24,113 nucleotides of DNA from a virus: positions 1 through 24,113 of the IMG/VR virus record IMGVR_UViG_3300036985_004800. One strand, 5' to 3'. Below are positions 1,353 to 13,201 of this stretch, one piece after another (positions within the stretch are counted from its first letter, which is position 1; each line of letters opens with the position of its first letter). The notes under the pieces are model-generated. The model saw nothing but the letters and a program-made list of their open reading frames with translations, ran no database searches and was not told the origin of the DNA. The position numbers and the translations under genes were made by a program.

Positions 1353-1478
1353 TTAACGGGGATTGCACGGGGTCGAAAGCTGCCCGACCCGGGAGCGCCC
1401 GCACTCGGGGCACACGAAGTAGAGGCCGCCCCAGGCGTTGACCCGGGCGACGTAGTTGCAGTAGCGAACCTTGGGCAT
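1353..1478 (-). CDS. 41-residue Cys-rich (zinc-ribbon-like) protein
   Basis: This very small leftward ORF starts MPKVRYCNYVARVNAWGGLY and carries Cys at positions 7, 23, 26 and 38, the middle pair as CPEC followed by Gly. The spacing suggests a single zinc-binding knuckle or a minimal zinc ribbon. The start at 1478 is chosen because the reading from 1580 adds sequence with no Shine-Dalgarno site and no Cys. The site before 1478 is weak (GAG about 8 nt upstream). It appears to be the first gene of the leftward small-gene group. The 3' end lies near an AACCCAGGTTAACC element at 1333-1346. It could be an RNA- or protein-binding adaptor, but its function is unknown. Confidence 0.5.
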   Translation of the reverse strand: MPKVRYCNYVARVNAWGGLYFVCPECGRSRVGQLSTPCNPR

Positions 1479-1978: not shown

Positions 1979-2017
1979 TGCCTTTTGGAGCAAGTTGACA
2001 CGTCAAGGCTTTTGCTG

Positions 2018-2031
2018 CAAGTGCAGCATTT
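2018..2031. repeat. CAAGTGCAGCATTT direct repeat, copy 1
   Basis: An exact 14-base repeat recurs at 2142-2155. GTGCAGCA also occurs at 2124-2131. This copy is part of a dyad, TGCTGC-AAGT-GCAGCA (2013-2028). The copies flank the two sigma-54-type promoters. They may be activator or replication-protein sites. Confidence 0.55.
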
Positions 2032-2039
2032 TCATGCGC

Positions 2040-2056
2040 TGGCACGGCTCTTGCAT
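2040..2056 (+). promoter_or_regulatory. Sigma-54 (RpoN) type promoter 1
   Basis: TGGCACGGCTCTTGCAT matches the -24/-12 consensus TGGCACG-N4-TTGCA exactly, with GG (2041-2042) and GC (2053-2054) separated by the required 10 bases. It reads rightward into 2070-2540, which has no convincing gene. Sigma-54 promoters need an enhancer-binding ATPase; dyads at 1995-2006 (TTGAC-AC-GTCAA) and 2013-2028 lie close upstream. Function depends on the host having RpoN. Confidence 0.6.
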
Positions 2057-2073
2057 ACCCCCCCTTTTCGAGC

Positions 2074-2090
2074 TGGCACGGAACTTGCAT
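2074..2090 (+). promoter_or_regulatory. Sigma-54 (RpoN) type promoter 2
   Basis: TGGCACGGAACTTGCAT is a second consensus -24/-12 site on the same strand, 34 bp after the first. The invariant positions are kept while the four spacer bases differ. That suggests selection on the promoter elements rather than a simple copy. Confidence 0.6.
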
Positions 2091-2141
2091 CCTCTGCTGC
2101 GGCACAGCAAAAACCGTGACGCAGTGCAGCAAAAGGGGTGT

Positions 2142-2155
2142 CAAGTGCAGCATTT
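2142..2155. repeat. CAAGTGCAGCATTT direct repeat, copy 2
   Basis: This is the second exact copy of the 14-mer at 2018-2031. It overlaps a TGTCAAG motif and is followed by TGTCAAGAGATTGT (2155-2168), which resembles the tandem repeats at 2519-2560. Confidence 0.55.
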
Positions 2156-2265
2156 GTCAAGAGATTGTAAAAAGCGGTGTGACAAAATGTCGCGGTTCGA
2201 GTGCGTGTCCGAAAATTGGGACGCAGCGGGGGCCGATTCCTCGCATTTTGTACGACTGAGCACTG

Positions 2266-2321
2266 TTCATTCTCAAAATGGGGGCGTTCTCAAGACGGCG
2301 GCGGCCCATTTTGAGAATGAA
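2266..2321. repeat. 17-bp perfect inverted repeat
   Basis: TTCATTCTCAAAATGGG (2266-2282) pairs exactly with CCCATTTTGAGAATGAA (2305-2321) around a 22-base loop. In RNA it would be a stable stem. It lies about 200 bases downstream of the sigma-54-type promoters. Confidence 0.75.
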
Positions 2322-2338
2322 AACGACCGCCCCAAAAC

Positions 2339-2358
2339 GGGGGTTGAACCCCCCTTTT
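2339..2358 (+). terminator. Short GGGGG/CCCCC hairpin with T4 tail
   Basis: GGGGG (2339-2343), loop TTGAA, CCCCC and then CTTTT (to 2358) form a compact terminator-like structure on the plus strand. It would end a transcript of roughly 260-290 bases from the sigma-54-type promoters. Confidence 0.35.
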
Positions 2359-2382
2359 CGGCGTGTAAAAAGATTGTCAACC

Positions 2383-2400
2383 GGTCAGGGCCACCTGACC
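2383..2400. repeat. 7-bp hairpin GGTCAGG/CCTGACC
   Basis: GGTCAGG (2383-2389) and CCTGACC (2394-2400) are exact complements around GCCA, followed by TTCTCATTTT. It is one of four hairpins in series in this gene-free region. Confidence 0.5.
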
Positions 2401-2407
2401 TTCTCAT

Positions 2408-2463
2408 TTTGAGGTCAAAGTAGTCTCAAAAGGGGGGCATCTTGAGACTACTTTGAGGTCAAA
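2408..2463. repeat. 15-bp perfect inverted repeat flanked by TTTGAGGTCAAA direct repeats
   Basis: TCAAAGTAGTCTCAA (2415-2429) pairs exactly with TTGAGACTACTTTGA (2442-2456) around a 12-base loop. Each outer end overlaps a copy of TTTGAGGTCAAA (2408-2419 and 2452-2463), itself a dyad (TTTGA-GG-TCAAA). The nested design looks like paired protein-binding sites able to extrude a cruciform, as in some origins and operators. Confidence 0.7.
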
Positions 2464-2474
2464 CGAGGCACGGC

Positions 2475-2518: not shown

Positions 2519-2560
2519 TGTCAAGAGAATGTCAGGGATATGTCAAGAAAAGGTCAGGGG
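2519..2560. repeat. Imperfect 20-base tandem repeat TGTCAAGA..GTCAGGG
   Basis: TGTCAAGAGAATGTCAGGGA (2519-2538) and TGTCAAGAAAAGGTCAGGGG (2541-2560) match at 17 of 20 positions with a 22-base period, about two helical turns. A related TGTCAAGAGATTGT is at 2155-2168. The second copy overlaps the last codons of the leftward gene. Confidence 0.5.
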
Positions 2561-3115
2561 CTCGCCCTTAATCGGGATGATGCGCCCGTAGTACAGGATA
2601 CCTACTTCCGTTGAATACTCGATCGGGTGCGGTATTATGGGGTGTGCGACCGGAGGGAGCGGAAGCAGCGCGGGCCCCTCACCCGCGTAGTCTCCCCGGC
2701 GCGCATATTCGTTAGCGCGCTTGACATCGTTGTAAACCTGAACCTCCGGGGCCCGGACGGCGGGCGCACCCTTCCCACGCTTCCCATAATCGGGCTCAAC
2801 CACGGGGCGCACCGGGGCCCGAACCACGGTCAAGCTCGGAGCGCGGTAATGAGCCGCCGCATTTGCCGTGGGGGCAGGGCCCCGATCGTCGTATCTCTCC
2901 GCGCCCTCCGCGTTGAACGCGGTGCGCCCTGACCCGTCGCGCCGCTTTATTTTAGAGGCGGAACCCACGTACTCCGCGCTGGGAAGACGGCCCCCGCCGG
3001 ACCCGTTACCGTGCGAGCGATTCTGTTTGGACGCACTTATGTCGCCCTTGATACCGCGAACCATGTTGCGCTTAGCATTAGCCCGTTTCTTGCGTAGCTT
3101 TTGTGATTCAGTCAT
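2543..3115 (-). CDS. Basic 190-residue protein, unknown
   Basis: GAGGTG precedes the ATG by 4 nt, supporting the start at 3115. Residues 1-35 are very basic and polar (SQKLRKKRANAKRNMVRG), residues 36-75 are Gly/Ser-rich and look disordered, the middle is rich in Ala, Pro and Arg, and the C-terminus is more ordered and hydrophobic (YSTEVGILYYGRIIPIKGEP). There is no Cys cluster or membrane segment. A nucleic-acid or virion-associated role is possible from charge, but no family is recognised. A perfect 20-bp hairpin occupies the leader directly upstream of the ribosome-binding site, so translation or mRNA stability may be controlled there. A terminator-like hairpin follows the stop. Confidence 0.7.
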   Translation of the reverse strand: MTESQKLRKKRANAKRNMVRGIKGDISASKQNRSHGNGSGGGRLPSAEYVGSASKIKRRDGSGRTAFNAEGAERYDDRGPAPTANAAAHYRAPSLTVVRAPVRPVVEPDYGKRGKGAPAVRAPEVQVYNDVKRANEYARRGDYAGEGPALLPLPPVAHPIIPHPIEYSTEVGILYYGRIIPIKGEPLTFS

Positions 3116-3740: not shown

Positions 3741-4370
3741 TTACTCCCGGGCCTTGACGGGGGTGCGGTAGCCCGTCACCTTGCTCACATTCTCATTCAG
3801 AGCAGCGCCGTCCGCGGCCGTCGCAGCGCGACCGTGGGCGAGACGCCCGATCATATACGCAGCAGCGCCCCCACCGGCTGTGCCGATGTCGTTGTACTTC
3901 GCTGCAGCCTTAGCTCCCGCGTCGCCAGCCTTGGACATCGAAGCAGCGGCAGCGCCGCGCTTCTCCGCGTCCTTCGTTCCGGCCTCGCGGGCCGTGTCGG
4001 GCGCCTTGTCGAGACCCGCCAGGACGCGGAAGAAAGAGCCGATGTCCTGGGGCACGTTCTTACCCACGGTGTCGGCGTCCTGACCCGAAGCGGTGGCCAG
4101 GGCCGCCACAAGGGCCTTACGGGCCGTCTTGCGCGCCTTACCGTCGTCGAACGCGTAGTTTACGAGCGCGGCGATGGTCGCGTCCAGCGAGAGGGGGGGG
4201 GGTTCCGTCTTAACCTCGGGGACGGCGTTGTCCGCCACAACGGGGGAGGGGATGGTGGGCAGGGTGTTCGTTTCGGTGAGCAGGGCAGTGTCCTTCGGGT
4301 TGACGGTGCGGGTCTTGACGGTGCGGGTCTTGACGGTGCGGGTCTTCGTTTCGGTCTTCGGGGCGGTCAT
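3741..4370 (-). CDS. Ala-rich 209-residue protein with N-terminal KTRTV repeats, unknown
   Basis: The ATG at 4370 has CGGAG about 9 nt upstream. Residues 1-25 contain three tandem KTRTV units and form a basic low-complexity tail; residues 26-60 are Pro/Thr/Glu-rich and probably disordered. From about 60 to 110 an ordered helical domain is likely (LDATIAALVNYAFDD, KTARKALVAALATASG). The C-terminal half is Ala/Gly-rich helix ending in KVTGYRTPVKARE. There is no transmembrane segment or enzyme motif. The basic tail plus a helical domain could bind nucleic acid, but no family is recognised. A sigma-70-like promoter is proposed at 4448-4476, and two hairpins follow the stop. Confidence 0.7.
   Translation of the reverse strand: MTAPKTETKTRTVKTRTVKTRTVNPKDTALLTETNTLPTIPSPVVADNAVPEVKTEPPPLSLDATIAALVNYAFDDGKARKTARKALVAALATASGQDADTVGKNVPQDIGSFFRVLAGLDKAPDTAREAGTKDAEKRGAAAASMSKAGDAGAKAAAKYNDIGTAGGGAAAYMIGRLAHGRAATAADGAALNENVSKVTGYRTPVKARE
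4301..4345. repeat. Three perfect 15-bp tandem repeats inside a gene
   Basis: TGACGGTGCGGGTCT is repeated three times head to tail. It encodes the KTRTV units on the minus strand. Perfect identity at the DNA level implies recent slippage expansion, so unit number could vary among relatives while keeping frame. Confidence 0.85.
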
Positions 4371-4607: not shown

Positions 4608-4713
4608 TATCGGAGAAATTTGTCTCAAAATCAAGGTTAAACGCCGCTTATCGGAGAAATTTGTCCCAAAACGCAGCTTAAACCCTGCTTTTGCGCCCCT
4701 ATCGGAGAAATTT
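4608..4713. promoter_or_regulatory. Three TATCGGAGAAATTT iterons upstream of the regulator gene
   Basis: Identical 14-mers start at 4608, 4649 and 4700. The first two extend into TGTCTCAAAA/TGTCCCAAAA. Spacings of 41 and 51 bp are close to four and five helical turns, placing all copies on one face of the helix. They lie 118-251 bp upstream of the -10 at 4854, in a stretch without genes. This is an arrangement typical of operator or iteron arrays bound cooperatively. The winged-helix-like protein encoded just downstream is the obvious candidate ligand, by context only. Confidence 0.7.
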
Positions 4714-4830
4714 AGATGGAAACTGGACTTTAGGGTAGTACGCTCCACCACAGAGCATCCCTTGGACCTCCCTGTGAACTCAGCCTTGACCTCATCACCA
4801 AAAAAAGTTGAAGAAGGAGCCCTACGGGAC

Positions 4831-12754: not shown

Positions 12755-13040
12755 CGTCGCCGCCTACGTTCATATCGTCTACGTCTAAGAGAACACGCAA
12801 ACCGAGGTCGAGCGCCATGCGTGTCACCTCGGCAACGCTGGCGATCGGTTCGACGTAAAACTCTGGCTTGACCTGGGTTTCTGGCTGGGACCGCCGCAGG
12901 ATGCGCGCGACCAGCCGCTGCGTCCGAGGAGCGCGAAGCATCTCCACCACGTCGGTCGGGACGCGCACCTTCAGCTCGACCAGAGGAACGCTTGGTCCAT
13001 CCTGGTTTTTGTCGAGGCGGGGGCGTCCGGTGCGGGGCAT
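12747..13040 (-). CDS. Ribbon-helix-helix-like protein at the small-terminase position
   Basis: I start at 13040 (MPRTGRPRLDKNQDGPSVPL, 97 residues). The ATG at 13049 lies only 2 nt from the -10 box and would precede the transcript start. Neither ATG has a Shine-Dalgarno site, so a nearly leaderless mRNA is likely. VELKVRVPTDVVEML looks like the strand and first helix of a ribbon-helix-helix fold; SVAEVTRMALDLGLRVLL (about 72-89) looks like its second helix. They are separated by an atypical insert of about 35 residues with a basic segment (RTQRLVARILRRS). The gene overlaps terL by 8 bases. It may be an autoregulator of the packaging operon or an unusual small terminase subunit; the sequence does not decide. 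Confidence 0.6.
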   Translation of the reverse strand: MPRTGRPRLDKNQDGPSVPLVELKVRVPTDVVEMLRAPRTQRLVARILRRSQPETQVKPEFYVEPIASVAEVTRMALDLGLRVLLDVDDMNVGGDDA

Positions 13041-13051
13041 GGTTGTCATCT

Positions 13052-13079
13052 ATATTAGGGGGCGCTGCGGAGGGGTCAA
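13052..13079 (-). promoter_or_regulatory. Sigma-70-like promoter of the packaging operon
   Basis: On the minus strand TTGACC (13074-13079), a 16-base spacer and TAATAT (13052-13057) end 11 bases before the ATG at 13040. Transcription would start about 5 bases upstream of that ATG, giving a virtually leaderless mRNA. Confidence 0.55.
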
Positions 13080-13201
13080 GGTCGAGCGCTCAGGTTGAAG
13101 CCCCGCCCTGCCCTCGGGCTACTTTGTACCCCAAAATCAGGGGCGCCGCAACCGGGGCCGCAGCTTCGGTTAGGGTGAAAGCACCCCCCCTGGAGGTTCT
13201 C

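Follow-up and report, generated by a model that had tools for sequence, protein, structure and literature searches.

Sigma-54 (RpoN) promoters of bacteria are built from a -24 and a -12 element, and their extended consensus shows Y before TGG, then R-T-T-Y, and W after TTGCW. DNA sites can also titrate a regulator, as is known for datA, which titrates DnaA in E. coli. The clusters of viral sigma-54 motifs described here share with bacterial RpoN promoters the 16-base motif, the 4-base spacer and the flanking preferences, and with datA-type titration sites the grouping of high-affinity sites where no target gene is apparent. Unlike bacterial RpoN promoters, however, the phage sites occur in both orientations, include overlapping convergent pairs and may precede no gene, and bacterial genomes have essentially no arrays of at least three perfect sites, as they occur in the phages. 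In Salmonella, inactivation of rpoN leads to phage resistance via glutamine limitation and RpoS (PMC8744999), which links sigma-54 to phages by another mechanism than the arrays. The sigma-54 motif itself is thus already known, whereas the open-access papers searched contained neither virus-specific arrays nor a direct precedent for sigma-54 in phages, nor a natural sigma-54 sink, phage-borne or other, that could be compared to datA.

The window analyzed here is a 24,113-base virus contig from IMG/VR, in which two perfect sigma-54 motifs are located on the same strand (+) within a non-coding gap, 34 bp apart from start to start (Table 1). As the original prediction had stated, all conserved bases of TGGCACG-N4-TTGCAT are kept in both copies, which conform to TGGCAYR-N4-TTGCW with the GG and GC elements at fixed spacing. 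In both copies a C precedes TGG, whereas the N4 differs (GCTC vs GAAC). The start at 2013 that had been assigned to the pair is that of a palindrome; the motifs begin at 2040. All remaining matches to the sigma-54 motif in the window have three or more mismatches. Given the base composition, a window would be expected to contain 0.0076 perfect TGGCACGNNNNTTGCW sites, both strands included, and a second perfect site on the same strand within 60 bp has a probability of 9e-6, which agrees with the earlier view that a chance origin is very unlikely. A reading as chance or as a simple local duplication without function could refer to the fact that the window has two copies only and that their core identity extends two bases to the left and one base to the right (GCTGGCACGG). 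It is strongly contradicted by the low number of expected sites, by a core that stayed perfect while N4 and spacer diverged, and by the class-wide conservation reported below, so that we regard it as extremely improbable.

Table 1. Features in and around the non-coding gap with the two sigma-54 motifs.
Feature	Position	Strand	Remarks
Small ORF, ~41 aa, MPKVRYCNY...	1353-1478	-	Left of the sites; putative gene call
17-nt inverted repeat I4, arms 2001-2017 / 2105-2121 (88%)	2001-2121		Brackets exactly the two sigma-54 sites
Palindrome TGCTGCAAGTGCAGCA	2013-2028		Just upstream of the motifs; direct repeat D9 and terminator-like hairpin
Perfect sigma-54 (-24/-12) motif 1, TGGCACG-GCTC-TTGCAT, TGGCACGGCTCTTGCAT	2040-2056	+	0 mismatches; predicted start, if used, ~2066
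Perfect sigma-54 motif 2, TGGCACG-GAAC-TTGCAT, TGGCACGGAACTTGCAT	2074-2090	+	0 mismatches; predicted start, if used, ~2100
Non-coding, strongly structured stretch 3' of the sites	2101-2470	+	Arms 2266-2282/2305-2321 and 2408-2429/2442-2463
Next convincing gene, 190 aa, basic, plausible ribosome-binding site	2543-3115	-	Without PHROG match

The pair is situated in a co-directional gap between minus-strand genes. The palindrome in front of the motifs, of which CAAGTGCAGCATTT is present again at 2142-2155, might possibly be a binding site of some regulator. Behind the motifs, the + strand of the structured stretch folds better than all shuffled sequences (z = -4.16). The claim that only hairpins and no protein gene follow downstream was thereby confirmed: the next convincing gene is encoded on the opposite strand and is therefore not driven by the sites, and the co-oriented downstream gene or operon that is usual for a promoter was not found at the window pair. 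Neither Rfam families nor tRNAs were found in the window. The proposed product, a regulatory RNA or a replication primer, would be consistent with the structured non-coding region and the absence of genes, from which the idea was derived.

In IMG/VR, at least 119 stretches carry tandem perfect sigma-54 motifs (two motifs 10-40 bases apart) and 54 stretches carry three perfect motifs in a row, whereas the reversed motif yielded no tandem stretch and a control with unchanged motif halves but a 5-base spacer yielded one. That sole contig with tandem 5-base-spacer pairs (L311) has them at 12901-13157. Perfect pairs that face each other were detected in 57 stretches and divergent pairs in 64 (independent scans). 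In bacteria and archaea, only two perfect triples occur in 257 Gb from 84,980 species, the enrichment in viruses over genomes being expressed as counts of stretches. Since both of these triples belong to long tandem repeats in which the motif is included incidentally, ordinary bacterial arrays were rejected as a source. The viral array loci form 107 locus clusters, linked by shared 31-mers only, and have one common motif, which is thus not private to one phage lineage, as it would be for an iteron or operator. The view that sigma-54 promoters are rare in phages therefore holds for ordinary phages (no site in T5, three sites together in 13 others), but not for a large class of uncultured phages with arrays. 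That the arrays constitute a widespread, virus-specific class of cis-acting sigma-54 binding-site clusters which functions mainly as a sink or roadblock, with the window pair as a small member, is the reading to which we give somewhat less than an even chance; its application to the window would follow from class membership.

The assignment of the arrays to sigma-54 was assessed on positions that had not been part of the search pattern. Among 348 distinct sites, the base before TGG is C or T in 83%, the first N is A or G in 74%, the second and third N are T-rich, the last N is C or T, and 80% have A or T after TTGCW. These unselected columns agree with the extended sigma-54 consensus. A 4-base spacer is present in 931 distinct sites compared to at most 30 for any other spacer, counted in loci for which the 4-base motif had itself been the selection criterion. 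Within five array families the 11 core bases diverged by 0-0.095 (0-9.5%) and the internal N4 by 0.13-0.39 (13-39%), whereby the motif itself may have influenced the alignments; the rate of change of the internal N4 equals or exceeds that of the linkers. As the core bases change far more slowly than the internal N4, selection acts on the sigma-54 contacts. Thus, the sequence comparisons strongly support the array motifs as selected candidate binding sites for host sigma-54.

The geometry of the arrays was analyzed with related arrays dropped only when identical, so that the following spacing counts are not fully independent. Neighbouring sites on the same strand show spacing peaks at 26, 37, 46 and 54-56 bp with a best period of 9.8 bp, divergent pairs show peaks at 23-25 and 35, and 88 of 112 convergent pairs lie 18-22 bp apart. 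Judged from footprint sizes, convergent sites at this distance would offer room for one holoenzyme but not for two. In their arrangement as arrays, their helical phasing and their palindromic pairing, the motifs resemble iterons or operators, and it might be that they do not serve sigma-54 but are bound by a DNA-binding protein of the phage, act as replication iterons or form an RNA hairpin. For a phage-specific protein, however, it would not be expected that 107 locus clusters share the exact sigma-54 consensus with an obligatory 4-base spacer. An RNA hairpin from convergent pairs was excluded, because their N4 matching is below that of shuffled pairs (0.233 vs 0.322) and the N4 are not complementary, so that they do not form stems. 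Altogether we consider a target other than sigma-54 quite improbable. One array family of 13 loci (L152 with the relatives L016, L048, L132, L141, L142 and L153) contains a repeated convergent-pair unit of 46-47 bp, and adjoins a gene for thymidylate synthase ThyX (seen in L152) as well as one of ~130 aa.

The array records contain 2-24 sites each, mostly in one cluster or in one stretch of several kb, and are nearly empty of the backward control pattern. The class as a whole thus has what a sink would need, namely several high-affinity sites that are clustered and orientation-free, whereas the window has two sites on the same strand. Two long IMG/VR contigs stand out by their number of sigma-54 sites, ~25 over ~13 kb in a 49-kb contig (L175-L177) and ~15 over ~13 kb in a 58-kb contig (L178-L180); in the latter, several sites are located just 3' of a gene stop codon and are directed against that gene. 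According to the IMG/VR gene calls, which are crude and come from a simple longest-ORF method, 54 of 106 arrays lie in divergent gene settings compared to 19% of other long gaps, and in several near-complete contigs the cluster is located where the leftward gene arm gives way to the rightward one. By the same calls, arrays with co-directional flanking genes have the same and the opposite direction in a ratio of 14:17 (12:16 and 9:16 when the gene calls were made stricter), and in whole genomes sites opposed to transcription are in excess (28:10). A sigma-54 activator domain (PF00158) was not found in 50 array records, whereas the same search was positive in 14 of 14 control genomes; T7-type RNA polymerase was also not found in the 50 records, in a search that had no positive control. 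There is no common neighbour gene, the 99 flanking proteins being mixed (three GP88, three peptidase M15, two SAM lyase, one ArdC and others).

Among cultured phages, sites are present in nine Vibrio T5-like phages (VCPH, 70E37.1, VF16, Athena, phi 3, VspSw_1, pVp-1, Thalassa and Pylo) with genomes of 111-129 kb. All of their TGGCAYGNNNNTTGCW sites are located at most a few kb from A1/A2 in the first-step-transfer (pre-early) region, the repeated copies of this region included, either beside A1/A2 or in its distal, non-coding portion. Some of the sites face opposite-strand genes (Athena 475, Thalassa 501, Pylo 333), and in the annotated genomes only opposed genes lie ahead of the distal sites. 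Several of these phages have one to three distinct sites per genome. Vibrio phages 1.235.O and 1.253.O carry a single site, which lies in non-coding DNA of a terminal region, and Aeromonas phage pAh6-C, a BLAST match, carries none. No site was found in E. coli phage T5 and Yersinia phage R201, unlike in their Vibrio relatives, which hold all their sites in the first-step-transfer region; in T5, every gene class is transcribed by means of sigma-70 (PMC7472727). From Yersinia to Vibrio, T5-like phages share ~55 bp of conserved sequence in the divergent pre-early gap (L158, ~2914-2982).

It might be that the sites are genuine sigma-54-dependent early promoters, which are fired by a host activator, e.g., of envelope stress or nitrogen, and yield small or non-coding transcripts or boost divergent early operons. 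The complete consensus at -24, -12 and flanks and the location in divergent gaps, as well as at the arm switches, make promoters a serious rival, and the pre-early location in the Vibrio T5-like phages, the palindromic repeats around the window pair and the strongly structured RNA downstream of it fit such a role. However, the sites have no preferred orientation relative to genes and are rather opposed to transcription in whole genomes, with the crude gene calls in mind, convergent pairs overlap, a phage activator was not recognised, and in T5 sigma-70 serves all gene classes. Of the original prediction of sigma-54 promoters, the part on real sigma-54-type sites is therefore supported by motif, spacing and the consensus tests on other viral loci, whereas the part on a transcript is not supported, because the window sites face the 3' end of an opposite-strand gene, the orientation in the class is independent of genes and convergent pairs at 18-22 bp are common. 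Overall, ordinary early promoters appear less likely, a possibility that we hold with clear reservation.

Most likely, the sites hold sigma-54 in non-productive closed complexes, as a sponge or as a roadblock. The arrays, which occupy non-coding stretches of early or regulatory DNA in phages without a recognisable sigma-54 activator of their own, are expected to bind host E-sigma-54 (or sigma-54), and the bound complexes would stay mostly closed, since no phage AAA+ activator was recognised, orientation is free, many sites face each other or are directed against the genes and convergent pairs overlap. In this way an array would mainly withdraw sigma-54 holoenzyme from the promoters of the host (flagella, pili, nitrogen, envelope stress) or hold the early control region, whereby the effect would grow as the phage DNA replicates. 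Tentatively, many environmental phages may carry DNA sponges, i.e., phased, orientation-free arrays of perfect RpoN sites that trap the holoenzyme in closed complexes and, in the course of infection, silence flagellar, pilus and stress or defence genes with no protein made, to which we give a little more weight than to early promoters. Several observations speak against a sink: arrays occur preferentially in divergent intergenic gaps, the natural place of promoters; the sites retain the whole promoter consensus including -12; one to three distinct sites, as in several Vibrio phages, are too few to titrate sigma-54 before replication; and the restriction of the Vibrio sites to the first-injected region suggests a role in timing.

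For a local effect, in contrast, few sites would be enough. Closed host E-sigma-54 complexes that cover early sigma-70 promoters, or the boundary at which the DNA enters, could serve as roadblocks or repressors and set these free again upon firing of an activator or a change of cell state, which would suit the divergent promoter gaps, the distal non-coding first-step-transfer DNA of the Vibrio T5-like phages and the excess of opposed sites. However, the sites were not shown to keep a fixed distance from sigma-70 promoters, and members of an array family differ strongly in copy number and position, so that we consider such a local regulator unlikely. If the arrays act as the favoured sinks, a virus would silence a host regulon without a protein; if they are promoters, many phages would couple their early programme to host activators. 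Both readings are testable in the cultured Vibrio T5-like phages, which have their sites only in the DNA that enters first.

The portal and the large terminase of the window virus have weak PHROG family matches. Relatives were found neither for the terminase in IMG/VR or INPHARED, nor for the portal in INPHARED, nor for the presumed capsid protein in IMG/VR. The window contains several further repeats. Within the non-coding region 1945-2440, the element TCTCAAAA(T/G)GGGGGC occurs in several copies and both orientations (repeats D4, I3, I5 and I7), and ATGTCAAGA repeats are located at 2154 and 2518-2559. Two direct repeats of 51 nt, which are 82% identical and 130 bp apart (1623-1673 and 1753-1803), have the form AAACTTATTTTTG...TAGGGTAGAG...CTGCACGC, and each copy is followed by a CGAACCC-CTCAGACCCTG repeat; perhaps these are promoters of another kind. 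Further to the right, TATCGGAGAAATTT is present in three copies within ~110 bp of non-coding DNA (4608-4720), and TTGACGGTGCGGGTC is arranged in tandem at 4300-4345 within the minus-strand gene 3741-4370, where it codes for KTRTV repeats.
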